DNA of 56,362 bases from the NCBI GenBank assembly GCA_025353485.1, contig JANXQO010000014.1:1-56362 (forward strand), in the 5' to 3' direction. A program made the position numbers and the translations under genes. The notes under the pieces were generated by a model. The model did no database searches. It was given only the letters and a program-made list of their open reading frames with translations, and was not told the origin of the DNA. How positions within the stretch are numbered: position 1 is the first letter of the stretch; every line of letters begins with the position of its first letter. Origin of the DNA: Chitinophagales bacterium (GTDB lineage Bacteria; Bacteroidota; Bacteroidia; Chitinophagales; Chitinophagaceae). Shown one piece after another: positions 29,857 through 38,215 of this stretch.

Positions 29857-32835
29857 CTAATAGTATTCTCTTATGTATGAGTACGCCTTATTAAAAAGTT
29901 CTTCATCCTTAATCGGATATTTCACCCAAAGAATTTTACGCAATTCTTTTCTCACTTCCTTTTCTCCTGTGGTTGAATTTTGCCATCCGTCAAAGCGAAC
30001 TATCCGAACTATTTCATCAATGTCGTTTACAATTCTCTCAACAATGATTGGTGTGGTTTCAGTTTTTAATGACTGGAATAATTCTGTAAGTGCTGCCTTT
30101 GCATTTTTCTGTTCGTCTTTCGTTTCATTTTCTTTTTCCGCTTGCAAAGTTTCTTTCGCTATCTGACAAAGTTCTTTGATGAAGTCAATTGAATTTATCA
30201 AACCTTTCTCCGCTTTGTCTCTCACTGCTTCCAATCTTTCACTTAATTCTTTGAACTTCAAAATTCCTTTGTGCTGATTCAATCTGCTCACCAAAATTTT
30301 CAGAAGTTTCTGTGCTTGCTTCGGGTCTTTCTTGTTCATCAAATCATCAATCACCTCTGCATTCAAAATCATTTCTTCCATGTCGGTTGCAATGCCTGAA
30401 ACTACAATGTGGTCGTGAATGAGTTTTGTAGTTTGTGCTCCCAACGCATGCCACAACAATCTTCCATTGTCTGTTGAAGTTGGTTTCACAGAAGTGTAAA
30501 CTTGCGAAAGCCATTTGTAATCTTTCTGAAATTGGTTCAACACTTCATCGGGTGAAAGTGCTTCCCACAATTTTGAAAGCGAACTAAAATCTTTTGCAAA
30601 CGCATCTCGTTTTTCATTGGTGTTGATGCAATCCTGTGCTGCTTGCAATCCTTCAAATCCTGCAATGCTTCTATCCACATTGAAGAAGTGAGCCAAACAT
30701 TTCTGAATTACTTCGGGAAGTTTATCTCTCAACTCCTGCAAGTTTGTTATTACTGCTTTGATAGTTTCTTCATCAAATGCCAATGCTTTTGCTGTGTTGT
30801 CAAACACTCCGAAATAGTCAACTATTCTTCCGAAAGTTTTATTCGGAAACAAACGGTTGGTTCTGCATATCGCTTGTAAAAGTGTGTGGTCTTTAAGCGA
30901 CTTATCCAAATACATTGTTTGCAAAATCGCTGAATCAAAACCAGTGAGAAGTTTGGCTGTAACGATTAAAAATTTCAAAGAAGAATCAGTGTCGTTGAAT
31001 TTCTCTACAACTTTTTCTTGTTTGTCTTTGTCCATTCCCCAACGCTGCTTAAATTCAAATTCATCACTGGCAGAAGTGCTGATAACAACTTCACTTGCTT
31101 CTGTTGGAAACCATTTATCTAATTGCTCTTTGTATTGAATGCAAGCAAAGCGGTCAGGCGTTACAATCATTGCTTTCAATCCTTCGGGTTCCACATGCTT
31201 GGTGTAATGCTCTGTAATATCTTTTACGATTGCATTCACTCGTTCAGGCGATTTCAAAAACACATTCATGTTAGTTGCCTTTTGGCTTAAGGTGTTTCTG
31301 TCTTCTTCACTCAAATCATTTGTGAGTTCTTTAAACGCAATGTCCAAATCTTCTTTACGAATATGATAGTTCGGCAATCGTGGTTCAAAGTGCAAGGGTA
31401 ATGTTGCATTGTCTCTGATACTTTCCTGAAAAGTATATCGGCTCATGTAACCGGCAGTGTCCTGCTCTGCACCGAAAGCCCAAAAAGTATTTTTATCTGC
31501 TTTGTTGATTGGTGTTCCTGTCAAACCAAATAGAAAAGCGTTTGGTAAAGCGTTACGCATCTTCCTTCCTAAATCTCCTTCTTGCGTTCTGTGTGCTTCA
31601 TCCACCATCACAATAATATTGTCCCGTTTATTCATGTCGGGATATGATTCTTTGAACTTGTGAATCATGGTGATGATTATTTTCCGTGCATCCTGTTCCA
31701 ACAAACTGTGAAGTTCTTTGATGTTGTCAGTTGTAACCATGTTTGCAACTTCTGCGGTGTTGAAAGTGGCTGTAATTTGTGTGTCCAAATCAATTCTGTC
31801 AACTACAATCAACACAGTTGGATTTCCAAGCGTTTCCTGCTTGCGAAGTTTCTGTGCTGCAAACAACATCAGTAAAGATTTTCCTGAACCCTGAAAATGC
31901 CAAATCAATCCTTTCTTTATTTCGCCTTCCTTCACTCGTTGCACAATCATGTTTGCTCCTTCGTATTGTTGGTAGCGACAAACAATTTTTATTTTCTTTT
32001 TCTGATTGCTTGTTGCATACACGGTGTAATACTGCAAGATGTCAAGCAGTGTAGAAGGTTTTAAAAGATGAGTCAATTGTTTTGAAACATCTTGCAATCC
32101 TGCGTAATGTTCTAACTTGTCTTTATCATCTTCTAATCGCCACGGTGTCCAAAACTCTAAAGGTGTTCGCACTGCTCCAATGAAAAGTTCTTTGCCTTCT
32201 GTTGCGAATGAAAAAATATTCGGAACGAATAATTGAGGAACAGAATTTTCATAAGTAACATGAATGTCGTGTGCTCCGTCAAACCAACTTACCGAAGGTC
32301 GCACAGGAGTTTTTGCTTCACCAACTACCAAAGGAATTCCGTTTACATAAAAAACCGTGTCGGGAATTTTAGTTTCTCTTGCACGAATATTTAATTGATT
32401 GGTAAGAATAAAAGTGTTGTTCTTTAAGTTTTCAAAATCAATCAAACGAATTGGAATGTGGTGTTCGCCTTTGCCGAAAGGCAAAGAAATTTCTCCTCTT
32501 AACCATTTTGAAAATTCTTCGTTGGCTCTCACCAAACCAACATTATTTACCGTGATAAGAATTGCACGAAGTTTATGAATTACTTCCTCGGCTCTTTCGG
32601 GTTGTGCTGCAATTTCAGGATTCAATCTACAAAGTGCTTCCGATAATTCTTTTTCCAGCAACACATCATCAATGTTGCGTTGCAACAATTCACTCTGAAC
32701 ATATTTCCATTTTACTGAATCGCCATAGTCAACTGCATCTTCGGCTACCACACCGTTTTGCACATTGTTCAGGTTCACACCTGTGAGTTTGTGAATGATG
32801 AAGTGTTCTACGGAATTTAGTTCGTTGAATGACAT
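29857..32835 (-). CDS. hsdR: Type I restriction enzyme, R subunit
   Basis: A 992-residue restriction and translocation subunit. The N-terminal nuclease has the PD-(D/E)xK pattern IPDTVFYVNGIPLVVGEAKT (Asp159, Glu173, Lys175). The motor domain has GSGKS (316-320, Walker A), VDEAH (411-415, motif II) and LFGLTGTPIN (motif III region). The C-terminal part is helical and would contact the methyltransferase core. HsdR cuts unmodified DNA after translocation, when loaded by HsdM and HsdS. It is the last gene of the operon; its ATG is 8 bases after the darG stop. A second, diverged copy of its first 15 codons survives at 34617-34661. Confidence 0.95.
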   Translation of the reverse strand: MSFNELNSVEHFIIHKLTGVNLNNVQNGVVAEDAVDYGDSVKWKYVQSELLQRNIDDVLLEKELSEALCRLNPEIAAQPERAEEVIHKLRAILITVNNVGLVRANEEFSKWLRGEISLPFGKGEHHIPIRLIDFENLKNNTFILTNQLNIRARETKIPDTVFYVNGIPLVVGEAKTPVRPSVSWFDGAHDIHVTYENSVPQLFVPNIFSFATEGKELFIGAVRTPLEFWTPWRLEDDKDKLEHYAGLQDVSKQLTHLLKPSTLLDILQYYTVYATSNQKKKIKIVCRYQQYEGANMIVQRVKEGEIKKGLIWHFQGSGKSLLMLFAAQKLRKQETLGNPTVLIVVDRIDLDTQITATFNTAEVANMVTTDNIKELHSLLEQDARKIIITMIHKFKESYPDMNKRDNIIVMVDEAHRTQEGDLGRKMRNALPNAFLFGLTGTPINKADKNTFWAFGAEQDTAGYMSRYTFQESIRDNATLPLHFEPRLPNYHIRKEDLDIAFKELTNDLSEEDRNTLSQKATNMNVFLKSPERVNAIVKDITEHYTKHVEPEGLKAMIVTPDRFACIQYKEQLDKWFPTEASEVVISTSASDEFEFKQRWGMDKDKQEKVVEKFNDTDSSLKFLIVTAKLLTGFDSAILQTMYLDKSLKDHTLLQAICRTNRLFPNKTFGRIVDYFGVFDNTAKALAFDEETIKAVITNLQELRDKLPEVIQKCLAHFFNVDRSIAGFEGLQAAQDCINTNEKRDAFAKDFSSLSKLWEALSPDEVLNQFQKDYKWLSQVYTSVKPTSTDNGRLLWHALGAQTTKLIHDHIVVSGIATDMEEMILNAEVIDDLMNKKDPKQAQKLLKILVSRLNQHKGILKFKELSERLEAVRDKAEKGLINSIDFIKELCQIAKETLQAEKENETKDEQKNAKAALTELFQSLKTETTPIIVERIVNDIDEIVRIVRFDGWQNSTTGEKEVRKELRKILWVKYPIKDEELFNKAYSYIREYY

Positions 32836-32843
32836 TGAAAATT

Positions 32844-33893
32844 TCAGGCAATGTGAAGTTGACTTCCGTAATTGTTAAGATGATTAACTGCAATATTGAT
32901 ATACTCTTTCGCAATCAGATTTTTCTTTCTCTCATTCCAGTCCTGAATTTTTTCAAACAGTTCATCTTCCGTTGCCTTTGGATTTTCACTCAACAAAAAA
33001 TGAGTGGATGAAAGTATCTCTAATGAAAGTGTTGTTTCAAATCCCTGAATCACTTTAAACAAATTATCCAACCGCTGTTTTTGTTCGGAGCTGAGATTTG
33101 TTTTAACGAATGTTTCAATTTCATTGAACCTTTCGTAATTCAGTTGCAATGGTTCAAATGCTCTTGCATTCATCTGCTCCATTCCTTTCAGATATTTTCC
33201 ATTAAGTGCATACAATACTTTTTCTACTGCCTGTGCATACGGTCCATATCGGTAAGGCACAAATTGCAATCGCAATGGCTCTCCGCTTTTCTGTAAGAAG
33301 TATGCAAGTTTGTTGGCGGCAAAAACGGATGCCACTTCTCCCAATTTTTCATACCGGAAAAGTGCACTCAGCAACATGGCTCTTGCAGCAGTTAATCCAA
33401 CTTCTTTTCTCACTTCTTCCTTCTGTAAGATTTCTTTCACTGCTTCATTTGGTTCGTAAACTTTAATGCTGATGTTACTAAGCGGTGAAAGATATTTTTC
33501 CATGATTGATTTTACTTTATCCCATTTCAAACCACCATTGCCGCAACCCAAAGGCGGAATGGCAATGCTTGTGATTTTATATGCTGAAATCACTCTTGCT
33601 AAATCTTTCATTCCATCTTCAATGTAACTGTATTGCGATTTTTTAAACCACTCTGTTTTAGTAGGAAAGTTGATAATGATTTTTTCACCGATCAAAGTAT
33701 TCACTCTTACCACTAACATTTTGCCCACTTGTATTTCGCCTTTCTTGCAGGCATCAGCATAAATTTTAAAGTTCATTGGGAACCGTTCTTTGAATTGCAA
33801 GGCAATTCCTTTTCCCATTACTCCAACGGTGTTCACCGTGTTTACCAACGCTTGTGTGTCGGCTTCAAGCAAGTTTCCTGTTATGTAGTTCAT
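32844..33893 (-). CDS. darG: DarG-type antitoxin (macro-domain DNA ADP-ribosyl glycohydrolase)
   Basis: A 349-residue protein with an N-terminal macro domain (about 1-155). It has ITGNLLEADTQALVNTVNTV at the ADP-ribose pocket, GVMGKGIALQFKERFP, and AIPPLGCGNGGLKW at the second loop. In known DarTG systems this domain removes ADP-ribose from thymidine, and the C-terminal helical part (about 160-349) binds and holds the toxin. The start overlaps the darT stop by one base (TGATG), giving translational coupling. It sits inside a type I R-M operon, between darT and hsdR. Confidence 0.9.
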   Translation of the reverse strand: MNYITGNLLEADTQALVNTVNTVGVMGKGIALQFKERFPMNFKIYADACKKGEIQVGKMLVVRVNTLIGEKIIINFPTKTEWFKKSQYSYIEDGMKDLARVISAYKITSIAIPPLGCGNGGLKWDKVKSIMEKYLSPLSNISIKVYEPNEAVKEILQKEEVRKEVGLTAARAMLLSALFRYEKLGEVASVFAANKLAYFLQKSGEPLRLQFVPYRYGPYAQAVEKVLYALNGKYLKGMEQMNARAFEPLQLNYERFNEIETFVKTNLSSEQKQRLDNLFKVIQGFETTLSLEILSSTHFLLSENPKATEDELFEKIQDWNERKKNLIAKEYINIAVNHLNNYGSQLHIA

Positions 33894-34537
33894 CAGAAAT
33901 AATATTTATTGTTTGGATTTATTTTTACTTCAATAGTCAATTTTAATTTTTTCAGAATGGCGTTCACCTCTTTTTCTTTTGCTTCATTCAATACCACAAT
34001 CGCCTTTATGTAATCAACGGGCACATGGTCTTTTACTAAAAACTCCGAATGTTTTTTTCTGATACGGTCTTCGTCACCATCAGCATTTTCATCACGGCAA
34101 TCTTCTGTATTAATAGAACGCCAATCCAAGAGTTTAATATGAGCCAGGTCGGTGGAATATCTTGTTATCTTTTTTGCTGCATTGCCATCTGTAAAGCACC
34201 ATTGAAAATCATCGGTGGCTAACTCATGTAACTTACAACAAAGGTAAATAATGTCTCTCTGTGGAAATGGCGGAACGCCATGCCCTGTTTTAATATTGTA
34301 AAGCATTGGAGTGCGGATTGAAAAATAAAACGGAACATAATCATTCACCACCGTATCGGGATAGCACTTTACTTTTCGGTTGTCTCTTTCCGAAATTATT
34401 TCTTTGCTGCCAATAGAAACAAAACCTTTATCGGCTTTGCCAGCATTTTTGCAATGCAAACCGCCACGAAGATTATGTTCCAGATTTTGAATCGGAATAA
34501 TTCGGAACACAACTATTTTCTTTATTTCAATTGGCAT
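33893..34537 (-). CDS. darT: DarT-type toxin (DNA thymidine ADP-ribosyltransferase)
   Basis: A 214-residue protein of the DarT/DUF4433 family, which transfers ADP-ribose from NAD+ to thymidine in single-stranded DNA and blocks replication, including that of phages. The segment VPFYFSIRTPMLYNI (about 68-82) matches the family NAD-binding region with its Arg. SEFLVKDHVPVDYI (about 164-177) holds the likely catalytic Glu165. The N-terminal RIIPIQNLEHNLRGGL is also typical. darT precedes darG, as in known modules. The KilA-N gene is upstream, separated by the hsdR'/hsdS' scar; the start at 34537 is the family one. Confidence 0.9.
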   Translation of the reverse strand: MPIEIKKIVVFRIIPIQNLEHNLRGGLHCKNAGKADKGFVSIGSKEIISERDNRKVKCYPDTVVNDYVPFYFSIRTPMLYNIKTGHGVPPFPQRDIIYLCCKLHELATDDFQWCFTDGNAAKKITRYSTDLAHIKLLDWRSINTEDCRDENADGDEDRIRKKHSEFLVKDHVPVDYIKAIVVLNEAKEKEVNAILKKLKLTIEVKINPNNKYYF

Positions 34538-34563: not shown

Positions 34564-34608
34564 TTACCCCAATATCTCATTCAGTAGTTTTTGCTTCAGG
34601 TTTTTTAA
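34564..34608 (-). pseudogene. Remnant of a second hsdS 3' end
   Basis: On the minus strand this stretch reads TTA AAA AAC CTG... to GGG TAA and translates to LKNLKQKLLNEILG then stop. These are the same last 14 residues as the intact HsdS at 35565-36743, but with several silent differences (for instance CAA for CAG, CTA for TTG, GGG for GGA, TAA for TGA). It is therefore a diverged allele, not a recent copy. It lies just upstream of darT. Confidence 0.9.
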
Positions 34609-34616
34609 GGATAGGG

Positions 34617-34661
34617 GTGAATCATAAAATGTTCTACACTATTTTGTTCGTTGAATGACAT
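34617..34661 (-). pseudogene. Remnant of a second hsdR 5' end
   Basis: Directly after the KilA-N stop (TAAATG), 15 codons read MSFNEQNSVEHFMIH, against MSFNELNSVEHFIIH in the intact HsdR: 13 of 15 identical, with third-base changes in between. After codon 15 the similarity stops and, eight bases on, the hsdS-like remnant begins. So the 5' end of one hsdR allele is joined to the 3' end of one hsdS allele. Confidence 0.9.
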
Positions 34662-35480
34662 TTATTTTTTGAGCTTGGTAATTTGTTTATTTTCTACCAA
34701 CGATTTCATTTGAGTGATTGCAATTTTATTTAACTGCTCTAATCTTTCACTTTGTTTTAAACCCTGATGAATCAACACGGCATTGATGCTTTCCATATTA
34801 CTCAGCACTACCAATTGTTCAATGCCGGCAGCATCACGAATGTTGCCTTCTGCTTTTGGGTTTGCATCTCTCCATTGTTTGGCTGTCATTCCAAACAGTG
34901 CCACATTCAACATATCTGCTTCATCGGCATACACAAAATTTATTTTCTCTTTTGAAAGTGCAGGAGGAATTAGTTTTTCTTTGATGGCATCGGTGTGGAT
35001 GTGATAATTCACTTTTGCTAAAGTGCGTTGAAGGTTCCATTCTAATTTCAGGCGGTCGTTCTCATCTGCCTTTAACCGCTGGTATTCTTTTACAAGAAGC
35101 AGTTGAAACTTTGGACTAATCCACATTCCGAAATGAAATGCAATATCCTTGTGTCCATAAGTACCGCCATACCTGCCTGCTTTTGCAGTTAATCCTATTG
35201 CCCCTGTATGTTCAATCCATTGTTTTACCGATAGAACAAAGTTGTTACTGCCTGCCTCATTTCTAATTATACCGAATTCGGTATAATTAAAACCCGGGTT
35301 ATACAATGCCTCCCATTCACCAAGGTATTCAATAGTGCTTTTCAAACTGAGCCATTTGATAATGATAGCTTCCTGCATTTGGCTTTTTGCCATGTCGGTT
35401 AATGAAATGAAATCGTCATTTTGCTGTGAAACGATAGAAATTTCAGCTCCCTGAACATTTATAATTTTATTTTTTGCCAT
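34662..35480 (-). CDS. KilA-N domain protein in the R-M operon
   Basis: A 272-residue protein whose first 180 residues are a KilA-N DNA-binding domain: ISLTDMAKSQ near the start, WIEHTGAIGLTAKAGRYGGT and GHKDIAFHFGMWISPKFQLL in the core. These genes are common in phages and as extra genes inside Bacteroidota type I R-M loci; a regulatory or anti-defence-sensing role has been suggested for the latter, but the function is not established. The C-terminal third (AKQWRDANPKAEGNIRDAAG...) is helical. It follows hsdS by 84 bases, and its stop abuts the start of an old hsdR fragment. Two palindromes with the core CGAATTCG lie in and just before the gene. Confidence 0.9.
   Translation of the reverse strand: MAKNKIINVQGAEISIVSQQNDDFISLTDMAKSQMQEAIIIKWLSLKSTIEYLGEWEALYNPGFNYTEFGIIRNEAGSNNFVLSVKQWIEHTGAIGLTAKAGRYGGTYGHKDIAFHFGMWISPKFQLLLVKEYQRLKADENDRLKLEWNLQRTLAKVNYHIHTDAIKEKLIPPALSKEKINFVYADEADMLNVALFGMTAKQWRDANPKAEGNIRDAAGIEQLVVLSNMESINAVLIHQGLKQSERLEQLNKIAITQMKSLVENKQITKLKK
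35264..35289. repeat. 26-base perfect palindrome inside the KilA-N gene
   Basis: The sequence centred on 35276/35277 is a perfect palindrome of 26 bases, core ATACCGAATTCGGTAT, extended by AATT and one more base pair on each side. It codes for residues around NYTEFGIIR in the KilA-N gene. A perfect palindrome this long is unusual in a coding region. Confidence 0.85.
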
Positions 35481-35564: not shown

Positions 35565-36743
35565 TCATCCTAATATCTCATTCAGCAATTTCTGTTTCAG
35601 GTTTTTTAAGGTTTGTATTTGGGTTTTGATTTCATCTCTTGTTTTATCAAATTGCTCAAACACTTCACTCAATTGTTTTTGTTTTTCTTTTTTTGGTAAA
35701 ACAAATTCCTGTGCTGCTAAAGTTTTCCATTTGATGGTTGGAGAAAGAGAACCTTCTGAAATTTGAACTGCTCTTTGCATGAAAACATCTGATTGCAAAA
35801 AGTGCGGAAGAAAACTTTTCTCAACTCGTTTTTCGTTGGCTCTTAAAATCATGCTGTGCGCAGATGCAATTCCGTCAAAGTGTGAAACAGCAACCTTACG
35901 CAAGTATGCTCTGCGTTTGCCAAAGATGATGTCGCCTTTGAAGATTTTCAGTTTTGTTCCTATAACATCATTGGGTGTTCCTGTTCTTTCAATCTTTAAA
36001 TTGTCGGCATCTAAATGTTCTAAGCCCACATAAGTTGTAAGTGCTGTTTTCTTTGGCTCAACTCTTTCAGAAATACTGAAAGCAATTTGCTCAAACTTTA
36101 CCTTCTCAAAATCATTTTCCTTCAATGAATTTCCGAATTGCATTTTCTCTCCTGTCAATTCCCTCAACAATTGATTTTTCAACTTCAATAAATTCTTCTC
36201 CTGCTGTTCGGCTTGTTCAATGGCGGTTTCTATGCTTTGAAATAATTCAGCTATTTGGGTTTGTTCGGGAAGGGAAGGGAGAGGGATTTCATGTTTTCTT
36301 AAATCCCCAAGCAGTAAATTTTTCTGTGCTGTGCCAGAAGAAACACTCATCAATTTATTTATGTCTGCTTCTAATTGAAAACTACAATAATGATTATCTA
36401 ATTTTTCCTTTTTAGTTTTTATTACTGCAACGCTTTTTTGAAATGTTGTTCTAATGGTTTTGTCATCCTCCTCGGCTATTGCAATTCTCCCAATTGTTCC
36501 AGCATTAGTAATAAGAACATCCCCAGGCTCAAGATTTGTTCTTCTATGAGTTTCTTCAAAATCCTTTCTGGTTATTTGTCTTGCATTATCATAAACAAGT
36601 TTCTTGTTAAGAATATCTTTCGCACTTAAAAAGTAATATCCTGAATTTGCTTCATTAACACAATCTCCATGCTTACCATCAGTAATAAGATTGGTTAATT
36701 CACCCAGTCTTATTTTTTTCCATGTGTTTTTTCTCAACTTCAT
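35565..36743 (-). CDS. hsdS: Type I restriction enzyme, specificity subunit
   Basis: A 392-residue specificity subunit with two target-recognition domains. The first begins WKKIRLGELTNLITDGKHGD and runs to about residue 160. A conserved helical spacer follows: LPSLPEQTQIAELFQSIETA, then IEQAEQQEKNLLKLKNQLL. The second domain spans about 210-345. The C-terminal helix LPKKEKQKQLSEVFEQFDKT is followed by NLKQKLLNEILG. Each domain reads one half of a bipartite DNA site. The start overlaps the hsdM stop by four bases (ATGA). A diverged copy of its last 14 codons lies at 34564-34608. Confidence 0.94.
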   Translation of the reverse strand: MKLRKNTWKKIRLGELTNLITDGKHGDCVNEANSGYYFLSAKDILNKKLVYDNARQITRKDFEETHRRTNLEPGDVLITNAGTIGRIAIAEEDDKTIRTTFQKSVAVIKTKKEKLDNHYCSFQLEADINKLMSVSSGTAQKNLLLGDLRKHEIPLPSLPEQTQIAELFQSIETAIEQAEQQEKNLLKLKNQLLRELTGEKMQFGNSLKENDFEKVKFEQIAFSISERVEPKKTALTTYVGLEHLDADNLKIERTGTPNDVIGTKLKIFKGDIIFGKRRAYLRKVAVSHFDGIASAHSMILRANEKRVEKSFLPHFLQSDVFMQRAVQISEGSLSPTIKWKTLAAQEFVLPKKEKQKQLSEVFEQFDKTRDEIKTQIQTLKNLKQKLLNEILG

Positions 36744-38215
36744 ATTTCAATTCCAATATTTTTTAAGTGAGAGAATAGATTTTCCAATGAAGTATTGATT
36801 TGTTTTTGTCCACTTTTTATTTCAGAAATTAAATCTTGTGTATCATGGTCATTCTCAATTGCCACTTGCTTCACATACAATTGCAAACTCAAATTTCCAT
36901 TGTTGTTCAACACATCTTCTTTGCTAACAACTTTTGCAAACCCATCCACATCTTTAAACCTCCAATAAGCGTCAGCAATTTTTTTTATGTGTTGAGGTTC
37001 AAGCCATGCATTGCTTCTTTCTAATCTTACTTCATCAACTGCATTAATAAAAATAATTTTCCCTTTCCTCTCTTTTGGTTTTTTCATTCGGCAAACAAGC
37101 AAGCAACTTTCCATGCTACTGTTGTAAAAAAGATTTTTACCTAAACCAATAACTGCATCCACCATATCTGCCTCAATCATTTTTTTTCTGATGCCGCTTT
37201 CAGCATCACGAAACAAAACTCCGTGGGGCCACAACACCACACATCTTCCTGTGTCGGGTTTTAAACTTTTTATGATATGCTGCTGAAAAGCATAATCAGC
37301 ACAACCTTGTGGCGGTGTTCCCCAAATATTTCTGCCATAAGCATCATTCATCCATTTATCCTGGTTCCATCGCTTCACACTGTAAGGTGGGTTTGCCATT
37401 ATCACATCAAACTTTCGCAGCTCATCGTTTTCCAAAAGTTGTGGGCTGTCTAATGTGTCGCCTTGCACAATCTGAAACTCGTCCACATTGTGCATATACA
37501 TATTCATCCGTGCAATCGCAGAAGTGATGAGATTTAATTCCTGTCCGTAAAGTTTCAGCGTTCTGTATTCTTTCTTTTGTTCTTTCAGGTGCAAAGCACT
37601 GTTCAATAAAATTCCACCGCTTCCGCAAGTGGGGTCATACACACTGTCGTTTGGCTGTGGGTCGCTAATCATGGTCATCAGTTTTACAACGGTTCTGTTG
37701 GTGTAGAACTCGGCAGCGGTGTGTCCGCTATCGTCAGCAAATTTTTTAATCAGGTATTCGTAGCCCTCACCCATAATGTCGTGAGGCACACTTTTCAAAC
37801 TCAAATCCATTTTAGAAAAATGCTCAATCAGGTCAAGCATTTTTTCATCGCTCATTCGCTTTTTGTTTGTCCATTGGGCATCGCCAAACACATCATGCAG
37901 TTGTTCAAAATTGGCGTTCTCAATGTTGCGTAATGCTTTTTGCAAAGCATCACCCACATTCAAATTTTTGTTGCGGATATTTTTCCAATGGCAACCCGAA
38001 GGAATATCAAACCAATGGTTCTCTCTGAACTCAGCATAAGTCATGTCGCCTTTTGATTCGTCAAAAGCAAGCTGGTATTCTTCGTCCCACACATCAGAGA
38101 TGCGTTTGAAAAACAGCAACGGAAAAATGTATTGTTTAAAGTCGGCAGCATCAATCATTCCTCTGAGAATGTTGGCTGCTCCCCAGAGATAAACTTCTAA
38201 TTGTTTTTGGGTCAT
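36740..38215 (-). CDS. hsdM: Type I DNA adenine methyltransferase, M subunit
   Basis: A 491-residue N6-adenine methyltransferase, the first gene of the leftward R-M operon. The SAM-binding motif I is DPTCGSGG (194-201) and the catalytic motif IV is NPPY (275-278, MANPPYSVKRW). The N-terminal helical domain (LWGAANILRGMIDAADFKQY...FKRISDVW) and the C-terminal helices are typical. Together with HsdS it protects the host DNA at the recognition site. Length and motif order are normal; nothing suggests that it is broken. Regulation of the operon is not visible upstream, in a gap of about 125 bases to the divergent FAD gene. Confidence 0.95.
   Translation of the reverse strand: MTQKQLEVYLWGAANILRGMIDAADFKQYIFPLLFFKRISDVWDEEYQLAFDESKGDMTYAEFRENHWFDIPSGCHWKNIRNKNLNVGDALQKALRNIENANFEQLHDVFGDAQWTNKKRMSDEKMLDLIEHFSKMDLSLKSVPHDIMGEGYEYLIKKFADDSGHTAAEFYTNRTVVKLMTMISDPQPNDSVYDPTCGSGGILLNSALHLKEQKKEYRTLKLYGQELNLITSAIARMNMYMHNVDEFQIVQGDTLDSPQLLENDELRKFDVIMANPPYSVKRWNQDKWMNDAYGRNIWGTPPQGCADYAFQQHIIKSLKPDTGRCVVLWPHGVLFRDAESGIRKKMIEADMVDAVIGLGKNLFYNSSMESCLLVCRMKKPKERKGKIIFINAVDEVRLERSNAWLEPQHIKKIADAYWRFKDVDGFAKVVSKEDVLNNNGNLSLQLYVKQVAIENDHDTQDLISEIKSGQKQINTSLENLFSHLKNIGIEI

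Follow-up and report, generated by a model that had tools for sequence, protein, structure and literature searches.

Leftover hsdR and hsdS ends between cargo modules of a type I restriction-modification operon

How does a type I restriction-modification (R-M) operon come to hold, between two of its other genes, the start of an hsdR and the end of an hsdS in addition to the resident copies of both? The question is raised by the window, by which we mean the whole 56,362-nucleotide stretch of a Chitinophagales bacterium analysed here (contig JANXQO010000014.1), where hsdM, hsdS and hsdR form one operon that has further genes in its hsdS-hsdR interval. Read along the minus strand, the order is hsdM, hsdS, a KilA-N protein gene, the stretch at issue (hereafter the seam), darT, darG and hsdR (Table 1). 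The cargo falls into known or candidate defence families, namely DarT/DarG and, for the KilA-N protein, the PADLOC candidate PDC-S22 (PDLC04962, E 5.7e-131), and an anti-phage role is predicted from these families. A second KilA-N gene, 68% identical, is found in the same genome directly upstream of another hsdS-like gene (L230:87-2344, G000 contig 107).

Table 1. Features of the type I R-M operon and its seam, in order of reading (positions in the window).
Feature	Position	Strand	Basis
hsdM, type I methyltransferase subunit	36740..38215	-	Pfam N6_Mtase, HsdM_N; NCBIfam hsdM slightly under cut-off
hsdS, specificity subunit	35565..36743	-	Pfam Methylase_S; own 3' end at 35565-35611
KilA-N domain protein, cargo A	34662..35480	-	Pfam KilA-N; stop ends at 34662
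Seam piece 1, matching first 45 nt of hsdR, probably of a second allele	34617..34661	-	nucleotide alignment
Joint, 6 nt	34611..34616	-	sequence
Seam piece 2, matching last codons and stop of hsdS, probably of a second allele	34564..34610	-	nucleotide alignment
darT, DNA ADP-ribosyltransferase, cargo B	33893..34537	-	Pfam DarT; NCBIfam toxin_DarT over cut-off
darG, macrodomain antitoxin, cargo B	32844..33893	-	Pfam Macro; NCBIfam antitoxin_DarG over cut-off
hsdR, restriction subunit	29857..32835	-	TIGR00348 over cut-off; intact 5' end at 32791-32835

The seam occupies 98 nt of the minus strand (34564-34661) in the interval from the KilA-N stop to darT. Its hsdR-start piece has an ATG immediately after the KilA-N stop and reads MSFNEQNSVEHFMIH, then PYP and a stop, the small open frame at the seam comprising 18 codons; the hsdS-end piece (about 47 nt) reads LKNLKQKLLNEILG plus stop. 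The former is identical to the resident hsdR start at 38 of 45 nt, five of the seven differences being silent, and the latter to the resident hsdS end at 36 of 42 nt over its core, with an identical peptide and all six differences silent; its stop codon is TAA, that of the resident hsdS TGA. Local alignment scores of 57 (hsdR piece) and 64 (hsdS piece) lie so far above the maxima of 300 single-base shuffles (26 and 34, respectively) that a chance match is untenable. Blastn E-values for the two pieces were 7.6e-5 and 2e-8 within the window and 6.8e-8 and 3.0e-9 in the whole genome, where no third match to either was seen at E 0.001. The original prediction, made from the window's letters, had placed a second hsdR 5' end and a second hsdS 3' end after the KilA-N stop, the hsdS peptide being unchanged in spite of several silent differences; its coordinates were correct and both statements hold.

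As to where the pieces came from, five other loci match the hsdR piece at 40 of 45 nt and one (L040) matches the hsdS piece at 37 of 42. In the hsdR piece a serine codon (TCC/AGT) differs along with L6Q, as in other alleles, and the mostly silent nature of the change points to divergence between working alleles, not to decay of a dead copy. The comparisons thus support an origin of the seam pieces in alleles other than the resident genes, by margins that are small (38 versus 40 of 45, and 36 versus 37 of 42). For both pieces the resident genes are narrowly outscored by other alleles, so that the seam is best read as a joint between two type I R-M alleles; the leftover probably marks the point at which two versions of one immune operon were fused. 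The prediction's assignment of the fragments to two alleles is accordingly borne out by the serine codon with L6Q and by the silent hsdS changes, to the extent that such small margins allow. That two strains' alleles were instead mis-assembled in a draft genome of 189 contigs is very improbable, as exact repeats shared by the seam and the native copies are no longer than 17 and 16 nt and similar seams occur in other assemblies, one of them (L186) in a 4.67-Mb contig.

The wider setting was examined in loci collected by hsdR similarity, not randomly: relatives of the window hsdR turned up at 67 loci in one scan of GTDB r220 contigs, and more distant type I loci were added afterwards. Altogether 207 loci were entered, with a usable hsdR in 189 and an hsdS upstream in 166, or 186 and 163 after removal of three duplicates. 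The interval between hsdS and hsdR was empty in 49 of these 163 loci, filled (101-9000 nt) in 112, and in two the genes overlapped by more than 60 nt. Close relatives, with hsdR at least 60% identical, number 41 with the window counted and with L138 and L139 left out as repeats of L051 and L045. Eight of them (L038, L039, L055, L058, L059, L064, L105 and L107) have hsdS and hsdR abutting, at gaps of -4 to 2 nt. In a further locus the gap is 61 nt, in 28 it spans 0.5 to 6.4 kb, and in four hsdS was not found. Cargo in the close relatives, its clusters being named from one member each, is modular: the PDC-M29 pair (nine loci) and the PDC-M21 pair (five) always adjoin hsdR, the PDC-S13 gene (six loci) is the sole cargo in the five where hsdS is visible, and there are also Septu-like pairs, DarTG, nucleases and others. 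In L043, whose hsdR belongs to the same family, darTG is the only cargo separating hsdS from hsdR, and its distance to hsdR is 8 nt, as in the window; L140 is another single-cargo relative. KilA-N lies between hsdS and a distant hsdR in one (L231) of 30 mapped KilA-N loci, two of which are one place, and between hsdM and hsdS in five (L211, L213, L215, L216 and L239). From the last cargo stop to the hsdR start the median distance is 2 nt, with 81 of 109 slots falling within -15 to 30 nt. The search for relatives returned six viral contigs at 47-50% identity and 2811 plasmid records, all below 60%.

The hsdS-hsdR gap is a cargo slot, as had been proposed from the window: loci with no cargo, with a single module and with stacked modules were all found. 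The prediction had named as its own contradiction a scar common to all relatives with no single-cargo forms among them; L043 and L231 carry single cargo, and among the 41 close loci the window's scar is seen in the window only and other scars only in L068. IS200-like Y1 transposases of the RAYT-like kind are common as slot cargo (blastp places them in 8 of the 112 slots, to which Pfam adds L048 and inspection by eye L272; the full set is L165, L166, L172, L271, L280, L048, L187, L277, L272 and L283). In four loci the transposase stop and the hsdR start share 4 nt, and in L280 the two abut.

Seams recur in this slot. Comparison of each slot with the start of its own hsdR, scores of at least 70 being counted, yielded with one addition 11 extra hsdR-start fragments in 8 of the 112 filled slots, distantly related hsdR groups included. 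Ten score 70-147 (one each in the window, L162, L272 and L283 and two each in L068, L245 and L286), compared with maxima of 39 on the reverse strand and 43 for one shuffled start per locus. The addition, in L186, has a protein score of 40, which is at control level, but is identical at 27 of 28 nt and has paralogue support. L245 and L286 fall in one hsdR group and their seams may not be independent. A profile scan of the 41 close loci found extra hsdR starts in the window and L068 only, the reverse strand giving no match. When hsdR was cut into 3815 tiles of 30 residues, a score of 60 was reached by first tiles only (7 of 112), by none of the other 3703 and by no reverse-strand tile. Rejected matches were those of L051 (40) and L144 (43), at control level; of L262, L281, L284 and L292 (46-47 in a wider scan), where reverse-strand controls reached 46-54; and of L147 (68), by our reading a start-site artefact.

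Nine of the 11 fragments begin no more than 11 nt from the preceding cargo stop, some overlapping it, and since hsdR sits likewise after the last cargo gene, each looks like a former hsdR start. Their differences from the resident hsdR, 61 silent and 32 replacing, give a pN/pS of 0.12; another locus's hsdR start is the better match for seven (by 2 to 7 points) and the own hsdR for three, with one tie. Under strict alignment they end 25 to 106 nt into hsdR, ahead of the nuclease-domain match (HSDR_N, Pfam) that begins at residue 36 of the window HsdR. Looser scoring lengthens some of them (125 nt in L068, 138 nt in L186), the paralogue comparison of L186 stopping at nt 25. The regular spacing could also be taken to mean that the 18-codon open frame is a functional leader coupling translation of the cargo genes; a relic predicts the same spacing, given how closely hsdR follows the last cargo stop, and with seams both rare and, in L245, L272, L283 and L286, affected by small insertions or deletions, such a role is hardly credible.

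Downstream of every hsdR-start fragment comes another module. The L068 slot, from a Cyclobacteriaceae MAG, contains in order a TmtA-like gene, an hsdR start, three small genes (one HTH), a second hsdR start, the PDC-M21 pair and hsdR, this last in two frames as sequenced. L162 has a CBASS-like set, a seam and SoFic; in L272 the seam is followed by an AbiD-like gene, in L283 by a 148-residue protein and RhuM, and in L245 by a DUF3800 protein and later a zeta-toxin-like protein, while behind the two seams of L286 come an alpha/beta-hydrolase protein and then RhuM. The seams of L283 and L272 consist of a Y1 transposase gene and then the hsdR start. At the second seam of L068 hsdR passes into palindromic sequence resembling, by eye, that upstream of the PDC-M21A gene in L141. 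Palindromes were seen by eye directly upstream of PDC-M21A in L068 (10110-10181), L141, L140, L095 and L062, and are perhaps its own operator.

Pieces of hsdS are scarcer. Among 1478 hsdS tiles only last tiles reach 60 (window, L275 and L280), and hsdS and hsdR pieces are clear together in the window only, L275 having an hsdS piece alone and most seams elsewhere retaining the hsdR start alone. The controls for hsdS ends were not clean, a shuffled end reaching 52 (L141) and the reverse strand 68 (L271) against 68 for the window and 73 for L275, so that the main support for the hsdS half of the pattern is the window's nucleotide match; the reverse-strand match of L271 looks like an inverted hsdS piece. 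In the first seam of L068 (204 nt) five of seven subfamily hsdS ends find their best match in the whole slot, at two places, and for one of them none of 2000 single-base shuffles scored as high, which is suggestive only of hsdS-end pieces there. Matches in L153, L250, L072, L274 and L145 and a weak one in L298 were not counted as seams. Neither were those in L280, where the copies lie just behind hsdS: two more near-identical hsdS 3' ends stand there in tandem (L280:7073-7363, hsdR on the plus strand). The L272 ORF taken as hsdS is a chimera, with the apparent real hsdS upstream, and matches to its end were discarded as Y1-transposase-like. This ORF (L272:7571-8554) combines the start of a 23S intervening-sequence protein and an hsdS stretch (both by Pfam) with an end similar to Y1 transposases.

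The clearest comparison comes from genome G085, whose three type I operons (L185, L186 and L196) lie far apart on a 4.67-Mb contig, with hsdR about 94% identical in DNA; near-identical hsdR with differing cargo makes them a natural experiment for cargo exchange. L196 has a cargo gene, A, for an AlbA/ATPase-type protein, directly upstream of an intact hsdR. L186 has the same cargo A and a junction to hsdR nt 25, then 1934 bp with DUF6088 and Fic, then hsdR, such that its match to L196 runs to hsdR nt 25, is lost and resumes from the hsdR start. The added 1.9-kb module is flanked by a 28-bp hsdR-start repeat, 27 of 28 positions being identical. Its donor was not found, relatives of its first protein occurring in 10 of 147 genomes at no more than 50% identity outside G085. 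L185 has the 3' part of cargo A upstream of an intact hsdR and looks, from this arrangement, like a mirror event in which other cargo was joined inside A from the hsdS side.

How, then, might modules be joined? We consider it fairly likely that the window's seam was left when an hsdR-linked darTG module entered upstream of hsdR in a KilA-N-carrying operon by one-sided recombination. On the hsdR side, ordinary homology would let the incoming DNA pair with the resident hsdR; its far end would be joined to the resident hsdR start without homology, as in homology-facilitated illegitimate recombination. The displaced hsdR would leave its first 45 nt behind KilA-N and the incoming module would retain the last codons of its own hsdS; a piece still bearing an hsdS end would give the window's order of hsdR start and then hsdS end. 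With homology on both sides, in hsdS and hsdR, cargo would be swapped and no seam would form, whereas one-sided events anchored in hsdR would gain a module and strand the old hsdR start upstream. Neither donor nor recipient sequence was found for the window event. The prediction had cast the conserved hsdS and hsdR ends as recombination handles, an idea that fits poorly with a joint between non-homologous sequences and with scars that mostly hold the hsdR start only.

The same order would arise exactly from a deletion fusing tandem complete operons (hsdMS-KilA-N-hsdR-hsdMS-darTG-hsdR) from the interior of the first hsdR to the second hsdS end, and G085 does have three paralogous operons, though far apart. 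A tandem operon was not found in 186 loci, 59 of which reach at least 3 kb past hsdR and most of which reach only a short way; hsdM- or hsdS-like genes lie behind hsdR in L070, L290, L291 and L068, none being a second operon by our reading. Moreover, an hsdS piece was looked for behind the hsdR start in the second seam of L068, L162 and L186 and was not found. We regard such a deletion as unlikely.

One-sided recombination has its own difficulty. By strict alignment no breakpoint lies more than 106 nt into hsdR, a tighter spread than illegitimate joining at random would give, and this counts against the mechanism, which alone leaves the clustering near the hsdR start unexplained. A length limit set by survival of short repeats was considered and dropped, fragment length and identity correlating with rho -0.42 (p 0.20, n=11) under strict alignment and showing no trend under loose alignment. 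The notion that the newest seam lies next to hsdR was also set aside: L068 agrees, but L245 and L286 show greater divergence in the seam closer to hsdR than in the other one. Alternatively, the hsdR start might be a dedicated integration point, at which modules moving as units with a short hsdR-start repeat insert by homologous or site-specific means and restore hsdR. The confinement of matching pieces to the first hsdR tile and the repeat flanking the L186 module favour this, but fragment ends spread over 25 to 106 nt (strict alignment) depart from a constant crossover, and no site-specific recombinase was seen by Pfam in 48 proteins, nearly all slot cargo and with most slots' cargo outside the scan, the Y1 transposases of L048 and L283 being exceptions; we hold it to be quite improbable. 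A broader form, in which the hsdR start is a general docking point for immune genes, modules ending in a short hsdR-start repeat travel from one type I operon to another, and a restriction operon behaves like an integron array without an integrase, seems to us doubtful.

Escherichia coli speaks against one-sided addition as well. There the hsdR of the DarTG2 island was matched in 257 of 5426 genomes, and the darG-hsdR junction was the same in 243, all at 95% identity or more. No swap indicating recent exchange was seen among the 40 matches listed per search, the 14 genomes with less similar hsdR lying outside them. The rarity of the proposed recombination, in those settings for which measurements exist, also weighs against it (PMC5361080, PMC3240628).

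Whichever way modules are joined, the seam is real, and as a footprint of stacking it recurs, in a slot that was known before; its pieces stand in a definite order in the window, and hsdR starts recur between cargo modules of distant hsdR groups. The similar leftovers of such distant relatives offer a hint of the way in which antiviral genes come to be stacked in type I operons. How defence systems become nested has so far been deduced mostly from the order of genes. A seam would preserve a material trace of one stacking event and could tell on which side the incoming DNA was anchored. With seams the matter becomes open to test: close operons that have a given module can be compared base by base with those that lack it, G085 being an example, and other operons with embedded defence genes can be screened for seams. 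Were the docking-point reading true, seams would record the defences that an operon has gained.

The slot is a familiar one, and prrC occupies the same place in EcoprrI. In the text available from each source, DarTG2 of EPEC lies between hsdS and hsdR, as DarTG does in the window, at a site termed a potential recombination hotspot (PMC12255303), TgvAB is embedded likewise in a type I R-M operon (PMC11411939), the Campylobacter rlo genes lie between hsdR and hsdS (PMC5183652) and prrC is embedded in the type IC locus EcoprrI (PMC12707154); the PDC families stem from guilt-by-embedding work (as cited in PMC12988326). The original prediction knew of no description of such a scar. The slot as a site of embedded defence genes is in print, by the available parts of three of these reports (PMC12255303, PMC11411939 and PMC5183652). 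For the seams the prediction's statement stands: literature searches on embedded genes, on remnants or fragments of hsdR and on the interval from hsdS to hsdR showed none among the matches listed (titles and abstract starts, preprints lying outside). What those reports describe, as far as their available text goes, is embedding, to which the window adds leftover hsdR and hsdS ends between stacked modules.

Two known systems invite comparison. Integron cassettes are stacked modules with a recurring short sequence between them, and in this the seams are alike; here, however, no integrase was seen in the scanned proteins, fragment ends vary, and what recurs is part of the coding sequence of the gene downstream. 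The other comparison is with homology-facilitated illegitimate recombination, described, in the parts available, for competent bacteria and, at low efficiency, for E. coli conjugation (PMC3240628). The available text on T6SS effector-immunity arrays and Rhs orphan modules likewise proposes one-sided homology with an illegitimate joint, in events called quite rare, and pieces of displaced genes are kept there too (PMC5361080). According to that text the T6SS arrays keep old immunity genes and effector 3' ends, whereas in the type I operons it is an hsdR start that is kept upstream of the new module, with a complete hsdR downstream.
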